Below are positions 3,934-63,352 of a stretch of 64,000 nucleotides of DNA, piece by piece. The position numbers were made by a program, and so were the translations under genes. The notes under the pieces were generated by a model, which had not been told where the DNA came from, searched no databases, and saw only the letters and a list, made by a program, of their open reading frames with translations. How positions within the stretch are numbered: position 1 is the stretch's first letter; each line of letters opens with the position of its first letter. Origin of the DNA: a virus; IMG/VR virus record IMGVR_UViG_3300043449_002710, positions 62,001 through 126,000 of that record. One strand, given 5' to 3'.

Positions 3934-4491
3934 ATGGCTATAGATGTTGTTCTCACCCCAGAAGATCAAGCAAAAGTCGAAGCGAATCAAAAGTCGGATG
4001 ACAAGCTACCGTCTTATTATAACGCTGACATCAAACAAGACGCCCAGATCTCTCGTGACTTTGAAGCCTTTTTAATTTTATCCCCGACCGCATTGAAAAC
4101 GTCCGCGCTTTCTTGGATTCAAAAAGCAAAGGCTTTGAACCGAGCCAACCAATTACGGGATGAGTTGACTCAACTTTCAATCAATCAGGAATTAAAAAAC
4201 GCGCAGGCAAAGATAGCGGCTTACGACCTTCAGCTTCAGTATTTTAGCGACTTCAGAAAAAACTTCCAGTCGCAGACCGCTTTCGCTGGGGTAGCCGAAG
4301 TCCAAAAATTCCTATCCGATCTGCAGCGCGTAATTGGGGAATTGGTTGTGGCTCGGGAGCGAGCTTATTTCGATCAGACTGTGTGCAAGGTGTTCTTAGA
4401 CTTCGATGCGCAAGCTGCGATCACCGATGACCAAGTGCAAGAACTCCAATCCTGGTCAGCGGTTATTTCCGAATACCTAGGCGTAGGTTAG
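3934..4491 (+). CDS. Hypothetical virion-cluster protein (185 aa)
   Basis: This is a mainly alpha-helical, Gln/Ala-rich protein with coiled-coil-like stretches in the middle. The start is uncertain: ATG 3934 is used here, GTG 3928 is in frame two codons upstream, and neither has a strong ribosome site. It follows the 693-aa gene almost without gap and precedes the gp25-like baseplate gene, so it is probably co-transcribed with tail genes. A baseplate or chaperone role is possible but unproven. Confidence 0.55.
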   Translation: MAIDVVLTPEDQAKVEANQKSDDKLPSYYNADIKQDAQISRDFEAFLILSPTALKTSALSWIQKAKALNRANQLRDELTQLSINQELKNAQAKIAAYDLQLQYFSDFRKNFQSQTAFAGVAEVQKFLSDLQRVIGELVVARERAYFDQTVCKVFLDFDAQAAITDDQVQELQSWSAVISEYLGVG

Positions 4492-4501
4492 TTTTAAGGG
4501 T

Positions 4502-4939
4502 ATGAGCGTTACACTGAAAGTCTCTGATGGCCATATTGTCATCAGCGCAACCACAGGGGTTTTGGAAACAGTCTCAGGCAATAGCAAAGCGTCACAAGAT
4601 CTGGCCGAGTGCTTACTTCAAGAATATTCATCCTCGCAGAATTATGGCTCTTATCTGAAGGCGATTATTACTAACCCCAACCCGCTTGAGGGGGCATCCG
4701 AGCTTTTGGTGCGGCACTATGTGGCAGAAGCCGTTAAGCTTCTCGATGCAGCGCAACTGTCCGATCCGGCCATTACTTCCGATGAAAAGCTCACCCAGAT
4801 CACTCGCCTTGAAACCGCCTCCGATGACAGCGGGACAGTGGGGTTTTTCGTCCAAGTGGCTACCGAAGACGGCGGTGCATCGGTTCAAGCATCTGCGGTC
4901 CAAGCGACATCGCTCAATCATCTTACCGAGGGGTTTTGA
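4502..4939 (+). CDS. Putative gp25/W-like baseplate protein (145 aa)
   Basis: This is likely a small baseplate wedge component. The clues are its size, a segment of the form D-G-H-I ... V-S-G ... S-Q-D-L-A-E-C-L-L with a following YGSYL, resembling the W/gp25/XkdS-type 'YGS-L' region, and its place directly before a J-like gene, the order usual in contractile-tail phages and phage-like machines. The C-terminus looks like a short beta domain. Only three bases separate it from the J-like gene. Sequence similarity is modest, so the assignment leans on synteny. Confidence 0.5.
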   Translation: MSVTLKVSDGHIVISATTGVLETVSGNSKASQDLAECLLQEYSSSQNYGSYLKAIITNPNPLEGASELLVRHYVAEAVKLLDAAQLSDPAITSDEKLTQITRLETASDDSGTVGFFVQVATEDGGASVQASAVQATSLNHLTEGF

Positions 4940-4942
4940 TCT

Positions 4943-6355
4943 ATGGCTGCTCGAACTCAACCTGAAATCCTCCAAAGTTTCCAAGACTCCGTGACGTTGA
5001 CCGACCCGACTGCTGACACCCAGAAAGGCCCGCTTTACTCGCTCGTGGGTTTACCCCTCTCGCAAGTCTTGGCCCCCGTCGAGGAAGCCGTAGACACGTT
5101 AGAGCAGACTTATTCGGCGGCCTTCGTAAAGACAGCCACCGACGATCAGGCTCAAGCCTTTTTGACCAACTGGGGGGAAAGCGCCGGAACTGGAAACCCA
5201 TCCACTGTTTTAGTTTACTTTCTCAAGTTCTCTCGACCCTTGGTATCTGAGGTCATTGATATTCCAGTGGGCACTTTGATCGGAAACGCCGACAAAACGC
5301 TGCAATACATTACGGTCGAAGCAGGTCAGATCCGTGGCGATCAAGCGGACAGCTATTATAATGCGGTGCGTAGATCTTACGAGGTTGCTTTGCTTTGTCA
5401 GGCGGTGGCCAACGGCCCACAGTATGACCTTCCGATTGGGTTGATCAATACAAAGGTTTCCCAGATCGCGGGAATTGACGCGATTGAGAACCGAGAACGA
5501 GCCAGCGGCGGTATCGCAGCCGAAAGCATTTCTAGTCAGATTGATCGCGTGCAAAACAAGTTCTTAGGGACCGCTATCAATACGGCTTCTGGGAATGAAT
5601 CTCGGATTCGAAACTACAACCCTGCTCTTGTGCTCGACGTGAAAGCCGTCTTGTCTTCGGATAAGATTCTTTTCAAACGAGTCTCATACACCCCGGCTGT
5701 AGATTATTACATCTTAGGGACACAGCCTGTGACCGTTAACGAAAGCTATACGAGCTTGATGGGTGGCGAAACCGAAATCACTTTGAAAAATGTCCCTAGC
5801 ATTTCTATCAATAGTGTGAAGATCAACAACGTTCCGATCACGAACTTCACCTTGATCTCGGATACTTCTCCTGAATACGGTGGGTCTTCCAAGGCTCAAG
5901 ATAAAGTTTTGATCCTCCCTGCCTTGATGGCGGGCGATGTGGTGGTGATCAACAACACTTATGATTCTTTATTTTCCAAAATTCAAAATGAAATCTTCTC
6001 GGCTGAAACCAAGCTCTATGCCACAGATGAGCTAGCAAGGGCTTTCAAAGAAATTCCGCTCAATATCGAGATTCAAGGAAAAGCGCTCCCAAGCTACGAC
6101 CCAACGGTGGTCGCCAATTCTGTTAAAGAGCAGCTTCAAACCCTCCTTGAGCCTGGGTATTGGCAAGAAATGTTTCAGCCCAATGATGTCTTGCAGGCTT
6201 TGAAAACGGCGGTCCCAGGTCTTTCGTCTCCGGTATTCTTGAAATTTCAGAGATCGACACTGGCCACCTCCAACATTGAAACCGTGGTGTTAAACGACAA
6301 CGAAATCGCGACTTATAGCTCCACTCATGTCGTGGTCACTATCAAGAATCTTTAA
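4943..6355 (+). CDS. Baseplate J-like protein (470 aa)
   Basis: Baseplate J proteins (P2 gpJ, Mu gp47, T4 gp6 superfamily) form the wedge ring that triggers sheath contraction. The protein shows the expected pattern: a helical N-terminus, an IPVGTLIG motif near residue 110 (the family's 'iPaGt' signature), a PQYDLPIGLI segment near 172 matching the 'G.N.p.g.i' motif, then a long beta-rich middle and a helical C-terminus with LEPGYW. Length fits the family. The ribosome site GAGGGG is nine bases before ATG. The gp25-like gene precedes it and a large wedge-like gene follows nine bases later. Confidence 0.75.
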   Translation: MAARTQPEILQSFQDSVTLTDPTADTQKGPLYSLVGLPLSQVLAPVEEAVDTLEQTYSAAFVKTATDDQAQAFLTNWGESAGTGNPSTVLVYFLKFSRPLVSEVIDIPVGTLIGNADKTLQYITVEAGQIRGDQADSYYNAVRRSYEVALLCQAVANGPQYDLPIGLINTKVSQIAGIDAIENRERASGGIAAESISSQIDRVQNKFLGTAINTASGNESRIRNYNPALVLDVKAVLSSDKILFKRVSYTPAVDYYILGTQPVTVNESYTSLMGGETEITLKNVPSISINSVKINNVPITNFTLISDTSPEYGGSSKAQDKVLILPALMAGDVVVINNTYDSLFSKIQNEIFSAETKLYATDELARAFKEIPLNIEIQGKALPSYDPTVVANSVKEQLQTLLEPGYWQEMFQPNDVLQALKTAVPGLSSPVFLKFQRSTLATSNIETVVLNDNEIATYSSTHVVVTIKNL

Positions 6356-31401: not shown

Positions 31402-31509
31402 ATTTAAAAATTAACCCGAAAAGCGACAGATTGTGAATTTGATGCCTTGCGTCGAGTAAATTCACTTGCTTGGGGCGGATTTCTTTCTTACGCTGACTTT
31501 CATAACAGG

Positions 31510-31539
31510 CCGCACTTAGGCATATCGCCGCATTTAGGC
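31510..31539 (+). repeat. Direct repeat upstream of SSB gene
   Basis: Two copies of CCGCAYTTAGGC (31510-31521 and 31528-31539; 11 of 12 identical) start 18 bases apart, 22 bases before the chosen SSB start codon. They are the only G+C-rich stretch in this intergenic region. Spacing near 1.7 helical turns would suit two protein-binding sites or an mRNA operator; T4 gp32 autoregulates its own leader, so a similar role is possible (inference). Confidence 0.4.
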
Positions 31540-31560
31540 CGCAACAGAAAGGTCGGATTT

Positions 31561-32847
31561 ATGTCGATGTCCATGTCCATGGACGATAGTGGTGAACTGC
31601 GCAAACAGAAGTTCGGAGAACGCGAACCGCGCTGGGATGAAAAAATCAAGTGGTACGAGATCCCAGATGATGCCACGCCACACGCTTATCGCTTAATCGC
31701 TCGCCCCGTTTACTACGCTCAGCACTGGATTCAAACCCGCAAGCAAGATGGCACGAATGGAAAACCATTTGCTGCTCTCTGCAAGAATTACGACTCCGAG
31801 AACAGCAAGTTCTTCGACAACGGCTGTAAGATTTGTGAGTTTGTTGATACGGCTTACAAGTCGATGCGTGAGGCGGAAAAGAATAAGCCTCCGAAGAAAG
31901 ACGAGAGCGGAAAAATCATTCCACCGAGGCTCCCTGACAACATCAGCCGTCTTCGTAGACGTGTGACCATGGCTCACAACTGCATTGTTCGCGAAGACCA
32001 AGAACAGGGTCCTCCCTCGAATAACGCGACTAACTGGTCTTTTGTCCATGCAATCAGGCTCCCTCAAGGTGTGGCTGACTCTGTCGTGGATCTGCAAGTC
32101 AAATTCGGGGCTCCCAATCCGGCTGGAGGCAAGTATGGTTTTAGCCACAAGGATTTCGGAAAAGATATCTACCTGAGCTACAACTCCCAGGCCGGAACCC
32201 CAACAGCTATGTATAGTGTGGTTGTGGGTCCAAAAGATCCGCCCACTCCTTTGACTGCTGATGAGTTGAAACACGGCCCGCATCTGGTCAATTTCTTGGA
32301 GCATCTGAACGGCAAGTACCCCAAGGATGAAACCCTTGAGGAAGCCTTGCGTAGAAATGGCTATTACGATTGGCTTGAAAAGATGAATGCTGCAGCCAAT
32401 CTGAGTCAGATTGAAAGGGTTTCTCCACCTGTTCAGGTTACTGCTCAACCCCAAGCGCACAGTGCTTTTGATGACGGTGGTGGAATGACTCATTCGTCTG
32501 GGGTAGCTCCAGCTCCCGCTAAGATGGGAAATTTCCAAGCTCCGCCCGAAGAAGATGACGTTCCGATGGATTTCCCACCGGTACAACAAGCTAAACCCGC
32601 CCCTCAAAAAGCTGCTGCTTCGGCACCAGCTTCCAACGGAAGCGATATCCAAACCAAACTTCAGGCTTTTGCAAACGAAACGGGTAAGGCCTTAACGGCT
32701 TTCGAGAAGGATTTATCCGATGTCAGTTTGAAATTTTATAAACCTGGATTGAACGTTCCTGCGTGCTTTACTCAATACTCAGCGAACGACAAAGCGGTTT
32801 GTAAAAAATGCCCAATCCGTCTGGATTGCATGATGACGGATAACTAA
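31561..32847 (+). CDS. Single-stranded DNA-binding protein, gp32-like (428 aa)
   Basis: Probable replication SSB. After an N-terminal basic segment, the sequence H55 ... C74 ... C89-x2-C92 resembles the one-His three-Cys zinc site of T4 gp32. A central OB-like part follows, then a long Pro/Ala/Gln-rich linker (about 300-380). The last 30 residues contain a C-x11-C-x2-C-x5-C cluster common at the end of large-phage SSBs. Start: four in-frame ATGs spaced six bases (ATGTCN repeats) begin at 31561, after AAAGGTCGG; an upstream TTG (31447) would add 38 residues but has no ribosome site. The RecA/UvsX-type gene two genes later fits a recombination module. Confidence 0.65.
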   Translation: MSMSMSMDDSGELRKQKFGEREPRWDEKIKWYEIPDDATPHAYRLIARPVYYAQHWIQTRKQDGTNGKPFAALCKNYDSENSKFFDNGCKICEFVDTAYKSMREAEKNKPPKKDESGKIIPPRLPDNISRLRRRVTMAHNCIVREDQEQGPPSNNATNWSFVHAIRLPQGVADSVVDLQVKFGAPNPAGGKYGFSHKDFGKDIYLSYNSQAGTPTAMYSVVVGPKDPPTPLTADELKHGPHLVNFLEHLNGKYPKDETLEEALRRNGYYDWLEKMNAAANLSQIERVSPPVQVTAQPQAHSAFDDGGGMTHSSGVAPAPAKMGNFQAPPEEDDVPMDFPPVQQAKPAPQKAAASAPASNGSDIQTKLQAFANETGKALTAFEKDLSDVSLKFYKPGLNVPACFTQYSANDKAVCKKCPIRLDCMMTDN

Positions 32848-32858
32848 GGGGAATTGTC

Positions 32859-33167
32859 TTGGGACTGTCTCGGAACGCAACTGCAGCGGAAGTCTTGAAG
32901 TATATCGAAACTAAGCCTGTGGCGATCCTGCTTTTTGTGGATCAAACCAAGTTTAATGTCGATTATTCGAATTTCCCTTGGGTGAAATCCGAGGCAGTCA
33001 TTGTGGATATCGACTCGGAGATTCTCGATACTCTTCAGATAGGGAAAGTTCCTCAATTCCGATTTTTTGTGCGTGGGAATGAAGTGGCTTCCTTGGTGGG
33101 GACGGTATCTTATGAAGAATACTCTGAGCTTAAGACCAAAGTCTTAGGTAAGACACGGAGCTATTAA
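32859..33167 (+). CDS. Thioredoxin-fold protein without CxxC (102 aa)
   Basis: The C-terminal half matches thioredoxin: VDIDSEILDTLQIGKVPQFRFFVRG-E-V followed by a GTVSYEEY helix, with the cis-Pro of 'vPqF'. The N-terminal strand (PVAILLFVDQTKF) stands where CGPC would be but has no cysteines, so it cannot be a redox enzyme in the usual way. Starts at TTG 32859 after AGGGG. Encoded between SSB and recombinase; phage T7 uses host thioredoxin as a polymerase clamp, so a scaffold role in replication is conceivable, but this is inference. Confidence 0.6.
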   Translation: MGLSRNATAAEVLKYIETKPVAILLFVDQTKFNVDYSNFPWVKSEAVIVDIDSEILDTLQIGKVPQFRFFVRGNEVASLVGTVSYEEYSELKTKVLGKTRSY

Positions 33168-33170
33168 ATC

Positions 33171-35549
33171 ATGGCAAAAACTAAGAAAGAAAAGGCTGAG
33201 TCTGCTCGCGAAGAGCGGTCTAAGGCCAGGGAAAAGAACGCCTCGAAGGCACAAGCAGATCTGATCAAGGAATACCGCGCTAAGATGCAAGCCTCGATCA
33301 ATCAGATCACCAAGAAACTCGATTGCAAGGCAATGGGTTTTGAACCACCCCAAGGAACCAATGGCGCGGTGAGCACAGGGGTTCTTTGCGTGGATCTGAT
33401 CACGGGTGGGGGGTTCCCTAAGCACCGTATGTCCACGGTGGCTGGAGACTCAGGCGCAGGCAAATCCACTTTAGTAGGCAAATCCGAAGGTACGGCTCTT
33501 CAGACGGGATTGATCTGCCATCATCTCGATCTCGAAGGCGCGGCTGACTATACCTGGATGCTCAAAAACGGAACTGACATGAATCTGTATTTGGGTAAAA
33601 GAGGCCAACCCAAGACTCTTTATTACATCCCAGATCTTCCATCTGGAGATGCTTCTTTCAGGTATATGTCTCGCGTCTTGGATGAAGCGATTGCAAACGG
33701 GGCTGAAGACCTCCCGTTTCTTTCAAATATCTTTTATCAAGACTCGATCCCGGCTTGTATCCCAGAGTCCATGCTTGAGAACGATGAAAAGGGCAATTCC
33801 CCCGACCTTGCGGTATTGACCTCTCGCGAAATTCCTCGCGTTAGAATGAAGCTGAAAAAAGCCAACGCAGCCTATGTTGCGATCAATCAAATCCGCGAGA
33901 ATCCCCGTGCGATGTTTGGTTGTTTGCATGGAGATACTCGAATTCGATTCGTAGATGGGCGAGTCCTTAAAATTAGGGATATTGTAAATCAAAAAATTGA
34001 AGGGGATATTTGGAGTTTCGATGAAAAATCTCAAACTCTAGTGCCTAAGAAAATTTTGAATTGGTTCAATAATGGCTATAGCTCTAGAGAACATTGGGTT
34101 TCGATTCGAACAGAATCTTTAGGTTCTCAACGTGGACATTATGACATTACGGTTACCCGTAACCATAAAATGCTTACCCCTTCTGGGGAATGGGTAGAAG
34201 CAGCTAGTCTCAAAGTAGGCGATAATTTGGTTAGCCAATACGAGGATCGAATTAACGGTACGTTGAGATCCTTTTTACTAGGTATGGCTGTAGGGGATTC
34301 GTCTCTGCACGAAAAATATAATCGTGGAGCCCTCACCCTTTGTAATAGGGAGCAACCTGAATACTTAGAATGGAAAGTAGACAAGTTAACCAAAGCGGGT
34401 ATTGAGTTCAAACAATACGGGGATCATGTTTTTATCTCTAAGCCACGCGCCGACTTTGAAATTTTAAGGCGGGAAACAACCAGAAGAAACCCGCTCAAGG
34501 TCTTGGATCAAATGACACCGCTGAGTATGGCTCTCTGGTTTATGGATGATGGATGTTATCATGGGAATACCCCGTTTTATAAAAATGAAAAACCTTATTT
34601 CAAACATGATGGATTCCTTTCTTTTAAACGCCTGAGAGAAGATCCGACCACTTTGGCTGGGATTGAAAAGTTTTTTAACCAAATGGGTTACTCAGGTTCA
34701 CTTTCTTCAGAGGGGGGATATCTTTTCAGTGCCGAAGGTTTTAGGAAACTCAGTCAGGATATCAGTCCGTTTGTTCCGCCTTGCATGTCTTATAAGCTCC
34801 TTCCAGAGCATAGGAATAATTACCAGGACTTTGACCTTTCTTTTGATGTGAAACAAAAAGTAGTCCCGGTAAAAATTCTTTGGGTTCGAGAGATTTCCGA
34901 CAAGAAGTCAAAAAGCTTGGGGAAATTCGATTTAGAGATTGAAGGAACCCATAATTATGTCGCTTGTAGTCAATACGGCGGTGTGGTTGTTCACAACTCG
35001 CCAATCTATGAGCCCGGGGGAAACGCACCTACTTTCTATGCGGATTTGAAGCTTTGGCTCACTCGAACCGGAAAAGCGAAAGCTTTGGACTTCAAAGGCG
35101 AGCACAAGATCACGCCCAAGGATTCCAAACTCTTTAAAGCCATGGGGGTTTCGATCGAGCAAAACCCAGATGGCACGGAAGACCGCTACTTCTACACTCA
35201 CGTCAAGACCGTCAAAAACCGAGTCTTCCCACCTTTGAAGGAAACTTACTTCAGAATGTGGATTGAAGAAAACGGTGGGGTGGGTCGCGGCATCGATCCG
35301 GTCTGGGATGTGATTCGTTTCTTTGAAGAGATCGGAATGTTGACTTTCGAGAGTATGAAAGAAGTTGTGCTCAAAGGTCAGATCTATGATTACTATGATC
35401 TGAAAAAAGAGATCCTCTCCAAGCCCGATCTTTATGAAGAAGCACGTTCACTTCTGGATTCAGGCAAAGCCTTCGATCTTTACTTCAACCGCTTGAGAGG
35501 CGGTGGTTTGGAAGTCGGTAACCCAGACCAAGAAGACGACGAAGAATAA
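33171..35549 (+). CDS. RecA/UvsX recombinase with in-frame intein (792 aa; 433 aa after splicing)
   Basis: Strand-exchange recombinase for recombination-dependent replication and repair. Exteins: a basic helical N-terminus, Walker A GDSGAGKST at residues 92-100, a Walker B-like IFYQD ending at D191, and the DNA-binding L2 loop start NQIREN at 239-244. After MFG250 the reading enters a 359-residue intein (251-609) and returns at SPIYEPGGNA, which matches the RecA 'PE.TPGG.AL' segment. The spliced 433-aa protein is longer than UvsX, with an acidic C-terminus (QEDDEE) as in RecA. GGAG lies 10 bases before ATG. It follows SSB and the thioredoxin-like gene and is closed by a strong terminator. Confidence 0.85.
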   Translation: MAKTKKEKAESAREERSKAREKNASKAQADLIKEYRAKMQASINQITKKLDCKAMGFEPPQGTNGAVSTGVLCVDLITGGGFPKHRMSTVAGDSGAGKSTLVGKSEGTALQTGLICHHLDLEGAADYTWMLKNGTDMNLYLGKRGQPKTLYYIPDLPSGDASFRYMSRVLDEAIANGAEDLPFLSNIFYQDSIPACIPESMLENDEKGNSPDLAVLTSREIPRVRMKLKKANAAYVAINQIRENPRAMFGCLHGDTRIRFVDGRVLKIRDIVNQKIEGDIWSFDEKSQTLVPKKILNWFNNGYSSREHWVSIRTESLGSQRGHYDITVTRNHKMLTPSGEWVEAASLKVGDNLVSQYEDRINGTLRSFLLGMAVGDSSLHEKYNRGALTLCNREQPEYLEWKVDKLTKAGIEFKQYGDHVFISKPRADFEILRRETTRRNPLKVLDQMTPLSMALWFMDDGCYHGNTPFYKNEKPYFKHDGFLSFKRLREDPTTLAGIEKFFNQMGYSGSLSSEGGYLFSAEGFRKLSQDISPFVPPCMSYKLLPEHRNNYQDFDLSFDVKQKVVPVKILWVREISDKKSKSLGKFDLEIEGTHNYVACSQYGGVVVHNSPIYEPGGNAPTFYADLKLWLTRTGKAKALDFKGEHKITPKDSKLFKAMGVSIEQNPDGTEDRYFYTHVKTVKNRVFPPLKETYFRMWIEENGGVGRGIDPVWDVIRFFEEIGMLTFESMKEVVLKGQIYDYYDLKKEILSKPDLYEEARSLLDSGKAFDLYFNRLRGGGLEVGNPDQEDDEE
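33921..34997 (+). mobile_element. Intein with LAGLIDADG homing endonuclease in RecA
   Basis: The element encodes 359 residues from Cys251 to Asn609, with Ser610 as the +1 residue. Splicing motifs are complete: block A CLHGDTRIRF, block B TRNH (329-332), block F DLEIEGTHNYVA (587-598) and block G VVVHN (605-609). Between them two LAGLIDADG-like helices, LLGMAVGDSS (369-378) and MALWFMDDG (453-461), each keep an acidic residue, so the endonuclease may be active. Insertion is in the L2 loop, a region conserved across RecA proteins and a known kind of intein target. The intein DNA is visibly more AT-rich than the extein DNA. Confidence 0.9.
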
Positions 35550-45854: not shown

Positions 45855-47519
45855 GTGGGGATGAGGCATAACCAAAAATACACAACTGAACAGATCAATA
45901 CCTTGATCTTAGCTCGGGGTTATTTGGTTGACCCGGAATTTGTGTGGTTGGGAGCTAACAAAAGCGATATTTCTTTTTTTTGTCCCCGCCATGGCAAGAG
46001 GACTACACATTGGTCCAATTTCCGAAAAGGAAAAAGTTGTAAGTTGTGCGCTAGCGAGCAACAAGCTCAGAAAAAAATCAGTAAAATCGATTGGCCTACC
46101 CGGGTTAACGAACTTTTAAATGAAAGAAATTTTAGCCTGCTAGAAAGACCTGAAACACTTTATTCTTTCGCTAAAATAAAAGTACGCTGTAATGTGGATC
46201 AGCACGAGTGGTGGACTTGCTACAACCACCTAAAAGCGCACAAAAAAGGTTGTTTGGTTTGCGCGGGTTTATTGAAAACTTCTTTTACCGAGGTTAAAAA
46301 GAAACTGCAGGAAGAAGAGTTTAAAGTTACTGGGGATCTTCTTCCTATTACTTTCAACAGCCAAACTCCAATAGAAGTGATTTGTCCCCAAGGGCACGCT
46401 ACAACCACCAATGCAAACAAAGTGCAGCGAGGTTATGGCTGCAAATATTGCGCTGAAAAAGCACTCACCCAAGAAGAGGTCATACAACGCCTTAAAACAC
46501 GTGGGTTCACAAGCACGGATTCGTACAAAGGAGTGCATACTCCAATGCACTTAGTTTGCGAAAATGGGCACGATGTTTTTAAGTCCTACATGGCGATATG
46601 GCATGATGAAACTCAGTGCTCCTCTTGTCGTCCCCCTTATTCATCTAAGCCGGAAGAAGAAATTTCCTCTTGGCTGAAGACTCTCCTCCCAGAAAACGAT
46701 ATTTTAAGAAGCGATCGGATTCTTTTGGATGGGAATGAAGTGGACATTTACATTCCTTCCAAAAAGCTGGGGATTGAATTCAATGGTCTTTATTTTCATA
46801 CAGAAATTGCCTTGATGCGATCGGGGCGCACACTTCTGGAAGCTCAAGCTTACCATCAGAGTAAAACGGTTCGTGCGGCCCAAAAAGGGGTTCAGCTCAT
46901 CACCCTATGGGATTTCGAATGGGAGATGCGGCAGCAGGCTGTGAAAACAAGATTGAAATCTCTGTTGGGCCTAAATTCATTTAGAGTGGGTGCAAGAAAG
47001 ACCACACTCAGGTCTTTGAATAAAAATGAGTGGAGAACAGTTCGGGATTTCCTAAACACTTACCACATTCAAGGCTCAGCTTCTTTTAAGTATGCTTACG
47101 GGCTTTTTTTAAAAGACGAGTTGGTCAGCGTCATGACTTTTCAAAATCACCACAGACAAAACGTGGATAGAGGCACTTTGGTTTTGAATCGTTATTGTGT
47201 GAAAGAAGACTTTTCTATTAGTGGAGGAGCTACAAAACTCTTTCAATATGCACACAAAGAACTGTCATGCCCCATCTTGAGTTATTCTGACAATCGTTGG
47301 TCCACGGGTGATGTGTATGAAAAATTGGGATTTACTGCCATCAAAAGATCCAGGCCTGATTATTTTTACTCTTTTAGGGGGAAGGGACCTTTTTCGAAGC
47401 AGTCATTAAAGAAAACGCCCGAAGAAAGAAAGTCTGATAAAACAGAACGGGATTTGCGATTGGAACAGGATTACCAGCGGGTTTGGGACTGCGGAAAGAT
47501 CACTTGGCTTTATAAATAA
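45855..47519 (+). CDS. Homing endonuclease, Vsr/EDxHD-like, zinc-repeat type (554 aa)
   Basis: Four zinc-binding repeats of the form C..GH/H ... C-x2-C (C43/C62-C65, C112/C133-C136, C177/C196-C199, C235/C255-C258) precede a Vsr-like nuclease fold: E295-V-D297-IYIP ... GIEFNGLYFHTE (E308, H315) ... K337 ... LWDFEWE. The last 190 residues (FL-xYHIQGSA, SYSDNRWSTGDVYEKLGF, a basic linker and YQRVWDCGKITWLY) form the tail seen in large-phage homing nucleases like I-Bth0305I relatives. GTG start, AAGGA six bases upstream. Free-standing, on the plus strand beside minus-strand tail genes; not inserted in a gene. Confidence 0.85.
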   Translation: MGMRHNQKYTTEQINTLILARGYLVDPEFVWLGANKSDISFFCPRHGKRTTHWSNFRKGKSCKLCASEQQAQKKISKIDWPTRVNELLNERNFSLLERPETLYSFAKIKVRCNVDQHEWWTCYNHLKAHKKGCLVCAGLLKTSFTEVKKKLQEEEFKVTGDLLPITFNSQTPIEVICPQGHATTTNANKVQRGYGCKYCAEKALTQEEVIQRLKTRGFTSTDSYKGVHTPMHLVCENGHDVFKSYMAIWHDETQCSSCRPPYSSKPEEEISSWLKTLLPENDILRSDRILLDGNEVDIYIPSKKLGIEFNGLYFHTEIALMRSGRTLLEAQAYHQSKTVRAAQKGVQLITLWDFEWEMRQQAVKTRLKSLLGLNSFRVGARKTTLRSLNKNEWRTVRDFLNTYHIQGSASFKYAYGLFLKDELVSVMTFQNHHRQNVDRGTLVLNRYCVKEDFSISGGATKLFQYAHKELSCPILSYSDNRWSTGDVYEKLGFTAIKRSRPDYFYSFRGKGPFSKQSLKKTPEERKSDKTERDLRLEQDYQRVWDCGKITWLYK

Positions 47520-53819: not shown

Positions 53820-55583
53820 ATGTTATTTGAAGATGCTTTAAGAGTTGCAAAAACTGCTGGATTGAAAGTTCTAGAAACTGGGCTTGTCAATTCTGCAAAA
53901 AGACAACTGATCGATGTTGTCTGTAAGGCTGGGCACTCACGTAGAATGCCTCGCAATAAATTCAGCAACAGACCCCCTCAAAATTGTCCTGTTTGTTTAA
54001 AAGAACAAGGCCCTGATCTGGATAAAATTCTAACTGATCCTAAAATCAAAACTAGGTTAGATGAGGGGTATCATCTCAAAAAAGCTTTTTCCGAAGATCA
54101 TGAAATCCAGTTAGAAGTTGTCTGCCCACAAGGTCACACCTATTCTATTGCTAAATGGAAATTTACTAAAGGGACTCAATGCGGCTCTTGCTCAGGTAAG
54201 AATCGGGACCTTACTTTTTTTAACATCAAGCAAGAAATGGAAGCCGAGGGTTTTGAAGTTTTATCGAAGGAATATCAAAATCAGTATCAAAAGCTCCATC
54301 TGATTGACCCTGACGGTAACGAACAATGGATCTCGGCAGATTCTTGGAAACGCGGTTATAGGTCAGAGCGAGGACCGACTCAGCAGACTAGAGACCGCAC
54401 AATCGAAGAAGTAAAAAAAGATTTTGAAGCCGAAGGCTATCAGCTTTTGGAAACCAAATTTATCAATGTTAAAACTAAAATGAGAGCAGTATGCCCTAAA
54501 GGGCATGAGTTTCGAGTGCATTGGAATCATTGGAAAGATGCTGGCGTTAGGTGCTCGGTTTGTTTTGGCACCCCTATGATGACTTTAAAAGAAATTCAAG
54601 AGCATCCAGAAACTATCCAATCTGGTTACCAAGCCTTACGCCGAGAGCGGATTGGTGCTCGTTTGGGTTGCGTTTTTTTATGTCCAAAAGGTCATGAATG
54701 GACTTCCACTCTCCCAGATTTTTTTTCAAAAAAATACCGATGTTCCTCTTGTAACCCGAAGTCTAGCTTGGCGGAATTGGAATTCCTAGAAGAAGTGAAG
54801 AAAACATATCCATCGGCAAGAAAAAGTTTGGATTTCGGTTTTGAAATCGACATCTACATTCCCGAGTTAAAATTAGGAATTGAGTATTGTGGTCTTTATT
54901 GGCATTGCGAAAAAGAAAAACAACCTAATGCACATAAGGACAAGTTTTTAAAAGCTCAAAAAAATGGAATCAAGCTGTTGACCATTTTTGAAGACGAGTG
55001 GTTTTATAAAAAAGAAATTGTCTTGCGAAGAATCTTGAGATCCAAAAAGATCTCGGCTCGCGAAACTCAATTCAAAGAGATATCTAAAGTGGAGGCAGAT
55101 AAATTTTTTGAGGAGAATCATCTTCAAGGAAAATCAGCTACTACAACAAAACAGCATTTTGGTCTTTTTTATCTAGGGTCTTTAGTTGGTGCTATTGCGT
55201 ATGGACCCCACCATAGAAAGGATACGGGAGAATGGGTGCTAAGCCGACTTTGTTTTGGAGAATTTGATATTGTCGGGGGTACGGAAAAGTTATTCAAAAA
55301 CAGTCTGCGTTATTTACCTAAAGTCAAACTAATCTCATGGTCCGACAACAGGTATTCTAACGGGTCAGTCTATGCGAGACTAGGTTTTATCAAAGAGGAG
55401 GATTTAGGTCCCGATTACTCTTATGTGAAACCTGGGCATTCCCCAATTCGGGTTTCCAAGCAATCCATGAAAAAAACCAAAGAAGAGCAAGCATCAGGGA
55501 AAACCGAGCACGAACTCCGATTAGCGCAGGATTGGTACAGGATCTACGACTGCGGCAAAATCCGGTGGGCTTACCCACGCTGA
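53820..55583 (+). CDS. Homing endonuclease, Vsr/EDxHD-like, zinc-repeat type, second copy (587 aa)
   Basis: Diverged paralogue of the 45855 gene. Several zinc repeats (C35..H39, C56-C59 and more of the form VCPQGH ... CGSC, VCPKGH ... CSVC, LCPKGH ... CSSC) precede the nuclease core FEIDIYIPELKLGIEYCGLYWHCE and K ... LLTIFEDEW. The end repeats SWSDNRYSNGSVYARLGF, a PDYSYVKPG stretch, a basic KTKEEQASGKTEHELRL linker and YDCGKIRWAYP. The N-terminal copy number of zinc units differs, so the targets likely differ. It is on the plus strand, 115 bases beyond the tail tube gene's start. Confidence 0.85.
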   Translation: MLFEDALRVAKTAGLKVLETGLVNSAKRQLIDVVCKAGHSRRMPRNKFSNRPPQNCPVCLKEQGPDLDKILTDPKIKTRLDEGYHLKKAFSEDHEIQLEVVCPQGHTYSIAKWKFTKGTQCGSCSGKNRDLTFFNIKQEMEAEGFEVLSKEYQNQYQKLHLIDPDGNEQWISADSWKRGYRSERGPTQQTRDRTIEEVKKDFEAEGYQLLETKFINVKTKMRAVCPKGHEFRVHWNHWKDAGVRCSVCFGTPMMTLKEIQEHPETIQSGYQALRRERIGARLGCVFLCPKGHEWTSTLPDFFSKKYRCSSCNPKSSLAELEFLEEVKKTYPSARKSLDFGFEIDIYIPELKLGIEYCGLYWHCEKEKQPNAHKDKFLKAQKNGIKLLTIFEDEWFYKKEIVLRRILRSKKISARETQFKEISKVEADKFFEENHLQGKSATTTKQHFGLFYLGSLVGAIAYGPHHRKDTGEWVLSRLCFGEFDIVGGTEKLFKNSLRYLPKVKLISWSDNRYSNGSVYARLGFIKEEDLGPDYSYVKPGHSPIRVSKQSMKKTKEEQASGKTEHELRLAQDWYRIYDCGKIRWAYPR

Positions 55584-59266: not shown

Positions 59267-60181
59267 ATGAAGAAATGTCGGTTTCCTGATTGCCCTGCCA
59301 CCAAACTTCAGCGTTTTGGCCTATGCAATAAACATCGGAAATGGGTTGAAAAAGGTTATTACTCGGAAGACCTTCGGCTTTTAAAACCCATGACGAGGAC
59401 GAGTACCCCCACGGTTTGCAAAATCAAGGACTGCAAAAACCCCCACGCCTCTCTCGGGTTTTGCGTGAAACATTACCGCAGATTTAAAGATGGGATTCTC
59501 GATGCAAACGGTGATCAGCTTAGGGAATTCAAACGCCCGATCAAATACCCCAAAGACATGGAATGCTTTTTGTGTGGGAAAAAAGGAAAGATCGTCAAAG
59601 GGTTTTGCCGGTTCCATTACCCTCAGTATTTAAAAGGCATCATCGACTACGATGGGGTGACATTAAGAAAATTAAAACGAGTGCAACGATACGAAAGTTG
59701 GCAGACGTGTAAAGCCAAAGGGTGCCGGAAAAAACCCAGAGCCAAAGGCTGGTGCAATTCCCATAAAGCTTCTTTTGACCGTGGGCTCTATAATCTCAAG
59801 GGCGAGAGGCTGGCTCCCTCGTTTGCTAAAAACAAAGACAGGCCTTGCTCTACTCCTCAATGTGGCCAGCCCGCTCACTGTAAAGGGCTATGCAGGCTTC
59901 ACTACAATCGGCAACGCACAGGCTATCTCGGGCCTGCTGGGTTTAAAAACGTGGGCCACCCCTGTAGTGAAACAGGGTGCTCAAAAGAAGCCTATTGTCG
60001 AACCCTTTGCGTGCAGCACTATTTCAAATGGAAGAGAAAGAATTCCCCTAAAACCAAGGCAAATCCTTCCGGTCAGATTTCTTCAGGTACTCTAGAAAAC
60101 TCGATTGCTTCTGATCTCGAACAGAAAGAATCGGGTTTTGAATCGGCCACTCGATCCGAAGCTCTGGGTCATTCCACATGA
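59267..60181 (+). CDS. Six-fold zinc-finger-like repeat protein (304 aa)
   Basis: Six repeats of C-x(2-4)-C-x(6-9)-G-x-C-x2-H run through residues 4-265 (for example CRFPDC ... GLCNKH, CKIKDC ... GFCVKH, CFLCGK ... GFCRFH), each followed by a basic G-x-Y/I-x loop; the repeat length is about 45 residues. This is like a chain of small treble-clef fingers, likely DNA- or RNA-binding. The last 35 residues are a Ser/Glu-rich tail that overlaps, on the opposite strand, the 3' end of rfbC by 134 bases. ATG 59267 is used; TTG 59261 is also open. No name known. Confidence 0.65.
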   Translation: MKKCRFPDCPATKLQRFGLCNKHRKWVEKGYYSEDLRLLKPMTRTSTPTVCKIKDCKNPHASLGFCVKHYRRFKDGILDANGDQLREFKRPIKYPKDMECFLCGKKGKIVKGFCRFHYPQYLKGIIDYDGVTLRKLKRVQRYESWQTCKAKGCRKKPRAKGWCNSHKASFDRGLYNLKGERLAPSFAKNKDRPCSTPQCGQPAHCKGLCRLHYNRQRTGYLGPAGFKNVGHPCSETGCSKEAYCRTLCVQHYFKWKRKNSPKTKANPSGQISSGTLENSIASDLEQKESGFESATRSEALGHST

Positions 60182-60614
60182 TCCCGCCCTCGGTTTTGGG
60201 ATTATAGAGCTGATCGACTTTGTAAAGGACATCGGCAGGCTCATCACCTAAGACGCAAAAGCCATGAGCAAAGCCTGCTGGAATCCAAAGAAGCTTACCA
60301 TTCATGTCGCTCAATTCCACGCCAACATGCTTTCCAAAAGTGGGACTATCGACGCGGATATCCACCGCGACATCCCAGATCCTGCCTCGGATAACGCCCA
60401 CAAGCTTTCCTTGCGCGGGTTGTTCTTGGTAGTGAAGCCCTCGGAGGATGCCTGGGGCCGAGCGGGAATGATTGTCTTGGGCGAAAAGGGCGGGAAGCCC
60501 TGCCTCCAAAAACTTTTCCTTTTGGAAGCGCTCCACAAAAAAACCTCGCTCATCGCCGTGGAGGTTCAACTCGACCAATTTCAGTCCTTCTAGTCTAAGA
60601 GAGGTGACTTTCAT
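60048..60614 (-). CDS. rfbC: dTDP-4-dehydrorhamnose 3,5-epimerase (RmlC, 188 aa)
   Basis: Cupin-fold epimerase of the TDP-rhamnose pathway: turns dTDP-4-keto-6-deoxyglucose into dTDP-4-keto-L-rhamnose. Family signature GILRGLHYQ with catalytic His61, GFAHGF-C around 115-120, and Tyr131 in VLYKVDQLY are all present. Length (188) is right. Last gene of the operon, starting 20 bases inside rfbD, ending with a 134-base overlap with the convergent zinc-repeat gene. No missing catalytic part is seen, so it is probably functional. Confidence 0.95.
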   Translation of the reverse strand: MKVTSLRLEGLKLVELNLHGDERGFFVERFQKEKFLEAGLPALFAQDNHSRSAPGILRGLHYQEQPAQGKLVGVIRGRIWDVAVDIRVDSPTFGKHVGVELSDMNGKLLWIPAGFAHGFCVLGDEPADVLYKVDQLYNPKTEGGIMWNDPELRIEWPIQNPILSVRDQKQSSFLEYLKKSDRKDLPWF

Positions 60615-61464
60615 ATTCTTCCCAGCAATCGTCTAAGCCTCGTTTCCAAGGCGGAAGTTTAACTCCTAAAGTCTTAAAAACCTTTTCCGTGTTCAATTTA
60701 GAATTCTTGGGCCGTTGAGCGCGAGTCGGAAACTCGGCACTTTTAATCGGTCGAACCTTTAAGGGGATTTTTGCTCGGTGAAAAATGGCTTGGGCAAACT
60801 CATACCAAGATGTCTCCCCCGAATTACACAGATGATAAACCCCACTAGGAAACTCGGGAAGATCAAGCGCTCGATCCAAAGCTCTCAAAGTCGCTGCAGC
60901 TAAATGCGGAGCATAAGTTGGGGCACCGACTTGGTCAAAGACAATTGAGATCTCAGACATCTTTTCGCCAAGTCTCAGCATGGTTCGAAAGAAATTTTTT
61001 CCGTAAGCATCATAGACCCAAGAAGTCCGAAAGATGAGGCTCTTAGGAGCCCGCTGAAGAACCGAGGCTTCGCCTAGAAGCTTGGCAGCCCCGTAGGCAT
61101 TGATGGGCTTCGGTATATCGTCTTCGCGCCAAGGCAGAAAACCTGTGCCCGGGAAAACATAGTCTGTCGAGTAATGGATCAAGGGGATCTCTCGCTTGGC
61201 GCACCAATCGGCTAAAATCCCTGGCGCGTAGGCGTTCACCGCGAGATTGATTGAATTGTCCTGCTCCGCTTGATCGACTTGAGTGTAAGCCGCCGCATTG
61301 ATGATCGCTTTAGGCGGCTCTGGGCAAAGCCGAGTTAAATCTGCCTCCAAATGATCGAATAAACGAAAGTCGAGCTGCTGAGAATTAAACCCAACGCCTT
61401 CTGACCCCAGAAGATGGAGCAAAGCTCTTCCCACTTGGCCTGAGGCTCCAAGCACCGCAATCAC
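60595..61464 (-). CDS. rfbD: dTDP-4-dehydrorhamnose reductase (RmlD, 289 aa)
   Basis: Short-chain dehydrogenase that makes dTDP-L-rhamnose with NAD(P)H. GASGQVG (residues 6-12) binds the cofactor; the catalytic set STDYVF (99-104) and YGAAK (124-128) is intact; NSKLNTEKV near the end is the family's substrate-binding region. GTG start overlapping the rfbA stop. Length normal for the family. Confidence 0.95.
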
Positions 61465-62339
61465 AGCACACGTCCTTCCTTGAGCACTTGCTCCAAATAA
61501 GTCCCGTAGGAAGTCTTACTATGGCGATCGGCATGAGCTTGAAGTTGATCCTCGGAGATGAATCCGTTTCGGTAGGCGATCTCTTCGAGACAGGCGATCT
61601 TCAAGCCTTGTCTTTTTTCAACCGTCTGCACAAAAAGTGAAGCGTCTAAGAGTGAGTCATAGGTTCCGCTATCGAGCCACGCCACCCCACGCCCCATTTT
61701 ATTGACCCTCAAGGCCCCTTGCCCTAAGTAGATTCGATTGATGTCGGTGATCTCCAATTCCCCGCGAGCCGAAGGCTTTAAGTTTTTCGCGATCTCCACT
61801 ACCTGCGAGTCATAGAAGTAAAGCCCGGTGACAGCCCAATTCGACTTGGGAAATTTTGGCTTTTCCTCGATACTCAAGGCTCTGCCTGTTCGGTCAAACT
61901 CGACCACCCCATAACGCTCAGGGTCGCTGACATGGTAGGCATAGATTTCAGCACCAGACTGAAGTTGGGTGGACAGTTGAAGATTTTTTCCCAACTGCTC
62001 AGAGTGAAAGATGTTGTCGCCTAAGATCAAACAGACTGGGGAATCTTGTAAGAACTCAGCCCCAAGCACAAAAGCCTGGGCGATCCCCTCAGGCCTAGGC
62101 TGTTCGACATACGAAAGCTCAACCCCAAAATCCGAACCATCCCCTAAGAGGGTTTGGATGCGGGGCAGGTCTTGAGGTGAGCTGATCACTAGGATCTCTC
62201 GGATGTCTGCAAGCATCAGAGTTGAAAGTGGGTAATAAATGGCGGGCTTGTCATAGACGGGCAAAAGCTGTTTGTTCACCGCTTTGGTGAGCGGGTAAAG
62301 CCTTGTCCCACTTCCTCCAGCCAAAACAATCCCTTTCAT
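61461..62339 (-). CDS. rfbA: Glucose-1-phosphate thymidylyltransferase (RmlA, 292 aa)
   Basis: Joins glucose-1-phosphate and dTTP to give dTDP-glucose, the first step. [11 protein letters not shown] (8-18) and [10 protein letters not shown] (23-32) are the nucleotide-binding signatures, and EEKP, YFYD and LEITD motifs follow in the family order. ATG 62339 overlaps the rfbB stop as ATGA and has GAGGAG before it; an 18-codon longer reading is not supported. Typical length. Confidence 0.95.
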
Positions 62340-63352
62340 TTGGATCTCCTCATCGTCACTGCCTGACACCAAGCCTCGTTTTCGAGATACCACTGCACGG
62401 TGTCTTTCAACCCCGCTTCAAAATTCGAATACTTGCGCTTAAAACCTAATTCTCGCTCCGCCAAAGAGTCGTCAATCGCATAGCGGTGGTCATGACCTAG
62501 CCTGTCTGTCACGAATTTGATCGCGCTTTCATGCGGTTTCCCATCGGAGCGCGGGTGCATTTGATCGAGTTCTTGGCAAATCGTTTTGACGACCTCTCTA
62601 TTGTTTCTTTCGGATCTTCCGCCAAAACAATAAGTGGCCCCAGGTCTTCCTTTTTCCAAAGCCAAGGAAATGCCTCGGCAGTGATCCTCGACATGAATCC
62701 AGTCTCGAATATTCCCACCGTCTCCATAAAGAGGGAGGTATTTGTCGGAAAGAGCGCAAGTGATCATGTAGGGAATGAGCTTCTCTGGGAATTGTCTTGG
62801 TCCATAATTGTTTGAGCAGTTGGTGATGATTGTAGGCAGTCTATAAGTATGATGCCAAGCGCGGACCAACATATCACCTGAAGCTTTGGAAGCCGAGTAA
62901 GGAGAGTTAGGCAGGTATGGGCTTTCTTCTGTGAAAAATCCTGTTGAGCCTAAAGAACCGTAAACCTCATCGGTTGAGACTTGGAGAAACTTGAAGTCTT
63001 TTTTCCTGCCTTCGGTATTCCAATATTCCAAAGAAGCCTGCAAGAGAGTGAAGACGCCTTGGATATTGGTTTCGATGAAAGCAGACGGATGATCAATGGA
63101 GCGATCGACATGGGATTCTGCAGCGAAGTTCACCACCGCATCCACAGAATATCGATTCAAGATCCCGCTCACCAAAAAAGAATCACAGATGTTCCCTGTG
63201 ACAAAGTCTAGCTCCAAGCCCTCTAGGTTTTCTCTGTGTCCCGCGTAGGTCAGAGCATCGAGCACGACGATCTGATCGCCTTGCTCTAGTCTTTGACGAA
63301 CAAAGGTGCTTCCAATAAACCCAGCCGCCCCAGTCACAAGAAGAGTCGCCAT
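62336..63352 (-). CDS. rfbB: dTDP-glucose 4,6-dehydratase (RmlB, 338 aa)
   Basis: Second step of the pathway, dehydrating dTDP-glucose. NAD-binding GAAGFIG (8-14), catalytic TDE (127-129) and Y152-x3-K156 in YSASKASGD are present, with [17 protein letters not shown] of the dTDP-sugar branch. First gene of the four-gene operon. No good ribosome site, but AT-rich promoter-like sequence (63353-63378, TTATTTTTTATC reversed) is upstream. Functional by all visible residues. Confidence 0.95.

Follow-up and report, generated by a model that had tools for sequence, protein, structure and literature searches.

A divergent, apparently complete class 1 intein in the DNA-binding loop of a viral RecA/UvsX-type recombinase

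A RecA/UvsX-type recombinase gene that is interrupted within its DNA-binding loop raises the question of what the interrupting element is, and whether it could still splice, cut and move. The gene lies in a 64,000-nucleotide stretch of DNA from a large bacterial virus (the window), which covers 62001-126000 of a record 223,260 bp long that may itself be a fragment. Its product matches Pfam RecA with 57 bits, above the gathering cut-off, and is the only RecA detected in that record. A sequence-only reading had placed an intein at 33921-34997, and these bounds prove correct to the base, because Cys1 is precursor residue 251, the closing His-Asn occupies 608-609 and Ser follows at 610. The interrupted gene is laid out as follows (here and below, the bar marks an insertion point):

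33171..35549, plus strand: intein-interrupted RecA/UvsX-type recombinase precursor gene, 792 aa, with Pfam matches, including the sole RecA match in the record
33171..33920, plus strand: N-extein, 250 aa, with Walker A GDSGAGKST, terminating ...NQIRENPRAMFG in loop L2
33921..34997, plus strand: intein, 359 aa, Cys1 to Asn359
34998..35549, plus strand: C-extein, 183 aa, starting SPIYEPGGNAPTFYADLK; the span includes the stop codon
Joined intein-less L2 site: ...ATGTTTGGT|TCGCCAATC...

The element is very probably a canonical mobile L2-loop intein carrying an I-SceI-like nuclease; splicing, cleavage and homing we infer from its sequence and a structure model. Removal of the intein leaves a spliced product of 433 aa, which aligns unbroken with E. 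coli RecA via NQIR....MFG|(S/N)P....GGNA..FYA. The exteins contain the RecA core, with Walker A and the L2 NQxR motif (Pfam; phmmer against E. coli RecA), consistent with a RecA/UvsX recombinase. At the junction, phmmer aligns 'inqirenpramfg|spiyepggnaptfya' on E. coli RecA 'inqirmkigvmfg|npetttggnalkfya', so that the insertion after Gly250 corresponds to E. coli RecA Gly|Asn-Pro-Glu and therefore falls inside the ssDNA-binding loop L2 (presumably residues about 195-209 in E. coli RecA), as had been proposed. With the interruption in this loop and no other RecA detected in the record, it is reasonable to infer that splicing would be necessary for recombination. The origin of the record in the virus sequence collection IMG/VR brings to mind an assembly chimera, or a non-intein domain inserted into the recombinase gene. 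Such an origin is scarcely credible, and was ruled out by the conserved boundaries and homologues: the boundaries are exact and in frame, all splicing residues are present, and homologues sit at this very residue in isolates whose genomes were sequenced independently. Furthermore, the interrupted host protein is conserved, and about 30 related recombinases are uninterrupted at this site.

All splicing blocks announced by the sequence-only reading were recovered (C1, T79-H82, H358-N359 and Ser+1), and the intein alone matches Pfam Intein_splicing with 40.7 bits, above the gathering cut-off. Conservation was assessed over 12 L2-loop inteins:

33921..33959, plus strand: splicing block A, CLHGDTRIRFVDG with Cys1; C1, D12 and G13 invariant in the 12
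34155..34166, plus strand: splicing block B, T-R-N-H (TxxH); T79 and H82 invariant
34917..34967, plus strand: splicing block F, LGKFDLEIEGTHNYVAC; D337 invariant
34971..35000, plus strand: splicing block G and Ser+1, ending GGVVVHN; Ser+1 at 34998-35000; V357, H358 and N359 invariant in the 12

Across these 12 inteins, C1, T79, H82, D126, D209, D210, D337, H358 and N359 are invariant, and the same residues are kept in a 15-intein set that includes inteins of other genes. The class 1 nucleophile, TxxH, His-Asn and +1 residue are thus all in place, relatives varying only at the +1 residue, and Ser+1 is present in all inteins at the MFG|S residue (11/11). By these sequence features, the element is confirmed as a full-length canonical (Cys1/Ser+1) class 1 intein that is predicted to splice. 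In addition, when it was modelled with AlphaFold2 on the basis of 15 related inteins, the mean pLDDT was 91 and the pTM 0.85. In Foldseek comparisons against the PDB, the intein matched PI-PfuI along its length, although the two superpose poorly overall, and its splicing part matched the M. tuberculosis RecA intein and the Ssp DnaB and Npu DnaE inteins; model and matches point to a HINT fold. The best match in the Foldseek viral library (TM 0.87) was a 1191-residue protein, the length of an Erwinia phage UvsX.

Two LAGLIDADG helices retaining acidic residues had also been claimed, and both were found within a predicted nuclease domain:

34206..34811, plus strand: LAGLIDADG homing endonuclease domain, I-SceI-like, intein residues ~96-297 (profile matches, Foldseek)
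34269..34310, plus strand: LAGLIDADG helix 1, SFLLGMAVGDSSLH; catalytic Asp126 at 34296-34298; D126 invariant
34515..34562, plus strand: LAGLIDADG helix 2, TPLSMALWFMDDGCYH; catalytic Asp210 at 34548-34550; M208, D209, D210 and G211 invariant

The domain scores 27.9 against Pfam LAGLIDADG_2 (cut-off 25), and a profile of the intein family matches I-SceI (1r7m, E=3e-22) and I-WcaI (6x1j, E=1e-22), the two proteins to which Foldseek also assigned the nuclease part. The profile was needed for this comparison; a phmmer search of the PDB with the intein alone gave no match. In the family-profile alignment, D126 falls on I-SceI GD44 and D210 on MDD145/MDDG, the I-SceI motif aspartates being D44 and D145. 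A catalytic acid is therefore predicted in each of the two helices, matching the I-SceI catalytic Asp and invariant in relatives. The nuclease shares its fold family and catalytic Asp positions with I-SceI and I-WcaI, which are intron-encoded, whereas that of the window is embedded in an intein. Nothing suggests decay of the splicing or the nuclease activity, both of which are predicted.

Comparison of insertion sites, proposed with the original reading, recovered relatives at the exact residue and also showed that the site is not new, being already filled, by inteins of one main clade at 33-37% identity, in cultured Erwinia and Yersinia jumbo phages and in five further viral contigs. The nearest inteins among deposited phages lie in the UvsX of Erwinia phage pEa_SNUABM_17 (NC_061449) and Yersinia phage fHe-Yen9-02 (OR620964); they share the MFG|S residue and the splicing and LAGLIDADG layout, are 349-350 aa long and about 35% identical to the window intein, and their UvsX adjoins an SSB gene. 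A further intein interrupts each of these genes 14 residues after the first (FY|C...HN|S), in contrast to the window gene, which has the first intein alone; both records annotate a single unsplit UvsX-like (or hypothetical) protein, of 1191 and 1167 aa. The MFG|S residue is occupied in ten further recombinases in all; a profile scan of viral contigs found it filled in L012, L013, L015, L016, L037, L042 and L054, and filled by a much diverged intein in L045. These same-site relatives emerged from the profile scan alone, the single-protein scans of viral contigs for close relatives returning just a 23%-identical intein in another gene; one scan of bacterial genome contigs gave only two weak partial endonuclease matches. 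Related inteins lie three residues further downstream in L017 and L018-L029. Both inteins are absent from many related recombinases, and 14 Erwinia-phage-type contigs have the second only. The second insertion (L014/L004, L005, L118, L123-L135) is intein-like and 335-352 aa long. It is common in Erwinia/Yersinia-type jumbo phages, which seldom carry the first intein, and Pfam scans of two members gave neither an intein nor a LAGLIDADG match. The L045 intein (4001-5728 region) is a very diverged LAGLIDADG intein that ends in Gly-Lys-Asn instead of His-Asn, with no Pfam splicing-domain match, and may reflect a separate invasion or splice in an unusual way.

Beyond phages, the RecA of an Acinetobacter ~111-kb plasmid (L018; 110 plasmid records at at least 99% identity) carries a homologous loop L2 intein of 360 aa and 28-29% identity, which differs in being inserted three residues on (DPT|C) with Cys+1 instead of Ser+1. 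Such intein-bearing RecA proteins (L018-L029, including that of the Acinetobacter plasmid) are often annotated plainly as RecA. The splicing domain of the M. tuberculosis RecA intein (PI-MtuI) ranks with the closest matches in both sequence and fold; the host proteins differ, and that intein presumably occupies a different RecA site, while the M. leprae RecA intein (RecA-b) is probably at the same MFG|S position as that of the window. RecA inteins have long been known from both mycobacteria (PMC5874633), and the passages on UvsX and inteins retrieved from the full-text literature did not describe an intein in UvsX. RecA inteins being classic and the site recurrent, the window intein belongs to a known kind: it is one more example, divergent and apparently complete, of a family found repeatedly in the DNA-binding loop of RecA-type recombinases of phages and plasmids.

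The same divergence bears on a reading in which the endonuclease is inactive, splicing is kept, and the intein is a vertically inherited, fixed passenger of the phage lineage. No close relative of the window copy is known, its divergence from the nearest relatives (33-37% identity) resembles that of the exteins (about 27-31%), as would fit long residence, and LAGLIDADG_2 is barely over its cut-off. However, both catalytic Asp, the LAGLIDADG helices and a downstream CMxYKL motif are intact, and the nuclease domain is modelled with high confidence, whereas decayed nucleases usually lose motifs or become mini-inteins; moreover, the closest known extein relative (L093) is without an intein. We consider a fixed passenger unlikely, though it deserves serious consideration, and prefer a mobile intein.

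Phylogenetic analysis gives evidence of movement within the family. In the intein tree, eight MFG|S inteins, including that of the window, and two inserted at +3 form one clade (support 99/99), the eight sharing both insertion residue and descent. L037 and L054, though inserted at this residue too, make up a lineage of their own outside the main clade, which points to more than one invasion of the site; L045, on a very long branch, is unplaced. Within the clade, the window intein falls in a subset (97/94) with L012, L017 and L018; the recombinases of these three do not lie near that of the window. The recombinase tree instead groups the window with L013, L042, L014 and L005 (100/99), a grouping rejected by the intein data (p-AU 0.0096). 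This conflict is good but, because of long branches in the trees, not overwhelming evidence of transfer.

Further evidence comes from a natural intein-less allele. The UvsX of L125, a 268-kb virus contig, matches that of pEa_SNUABM_17 perfectly along 497 residues and lacks the first intein. There are 0 nucleotide differences in the 266 bases before the site, and the Ser codon directly after it differs (TCA against AGT). When L125 is compared with L014, identity is broken at the first post-site codon, and the next 11 bases of the Erwinia intein allele (AGTCCCGAATA) equal those of the Yersinia phage allele, which is suggestive of co-conversion. Since so similar an allele exists without the first intein, inteins of this family must be acquired, or else exactly removed, within short times, gain and precise loss being indistinguishable in this polymorphism, which concerns the Erwinia phage lineage. 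For the window copy, recent movement is unsupported because its nearest intein relatives are just 33-37% identical. The Erwinia phage pair, with and without the intein in the same recombinase, offers a ready natural donor and empty target.

Separate descent had originally been argued from base composition; it is supported better by the trees and the intein-less allele of a related phage than by GC. The intein is AT-richer, as claimed (GC 40.6%, GC3 36.8%, against 48.9% and 53.7% in the exteins; Fisher p=2e-6 for GC3 within the gene), but as a pointer to separate descent the difference is weak, lying within the range of the phage's own genes. Among 208 overlapping 359-codon stretches from other window genes, 19 (9%) are as low in GC and 32 as low in GC3. 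Composition alone is weak evidence because other stretches of the window are equally AT-rich, and AT-richness was rejected as proof of foreign origin on the 19/208 figure. In addition, several same-site inteins elsewhere match their own exteins in composition. Composition weakly agrees with separate descent without proving it.

In the proposed mobile cycle, the 792-aa precursor would be translated in a presumably inactive form because a 41-kDa domain sits in its DNA-binding loop. The intein would then excise itself by the thioester, branch and Asn-cyclisation route, joining the exteins through Ser+1, restoring loop L2 and yielding an active 433-aa recombinase. Released or still unspliced, the intein would retain an I-SceI-like LAGLIDADG nuclease with both catalytic Asp, which, in a mixed infection, could cut a competing phage's uninterrupted recombinase gene at its conserved L2 codons. 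Recombination repair would copy the intein in, plausibly through the very recombinase it interrupts. Mobility of this type requires UvsX or RecA, according to a review of T4 work (PMC2988022), and on that account the window intein would depend on the enzyme it interrupts.

A location in the ssDNA-binding loop may also suggest a regulatory switch, with the recombinase held inactive until splicing is set off by ssDNA or some other cue from the infection. There is precedent in the P. horikoshii RadA intein, at a P-loop site different from L2, whose splicing is accelerated by ssDNA (PMC5790916), and in the M. leprae RecA intein, which splices in mycobacteria only (PMC5874633); the window site is in the DNA-binding loop itself. 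Nevertheless, the sequence gives no evidence for regulation, and most related UvsX genes are without an intein, a sporadic occupancy that fits a parasite; a switch is improbable. A still broader proposal, that loop L2 is a landing strip with three intein positions within ~15 residues, and that the window intein both spreads via its recombinase and gates it by ssDNA-dependent splicing, is a highly speculative one to which we give little credence. Because homing repair itself requires a recombinase, an intein within that enzyme lends itself well to studying whether DNA breaks set the timing of splicing.

The genomic neighbourhood of the gene includes a single-strand DNA binding protein:

31447..32847, plus strand: single-strand DNA binding protein (SSB), upstream neighbour; phrog_15004 E=2.7e-5, tblastn matches to L093, L094 and L098

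The order SSB then UvsX is also found in Erwinia, Yersinia and other jumbo phages. At 32859-33167 (plus strand), a small protein with a sub-threshold thioredoxin-like match ends 3 bases before the UvsX start codon; its candidacy as a redox partner of Cys1 was dropped, the Pfam match being below the cut-off. Elsewhere in the window, 45855-47519 and 53820-55583 (both plus strand) encode two large free-standing proteins that resemble homing endonucleases (phrog_559/phrog_3339). They are paralogues (35% identical) that bear zinc-finger-like repeats and match Mom-like proteins weakly, and the gene at 53820-55583 is among the most AT-rich of the window. Finally, four adjacent genes at 60048-63352 (minus strand) match RmlC, RmlD, RmlA and RmlB, and together seem to give this phage a full dTDP-L-rhamnose pathway.
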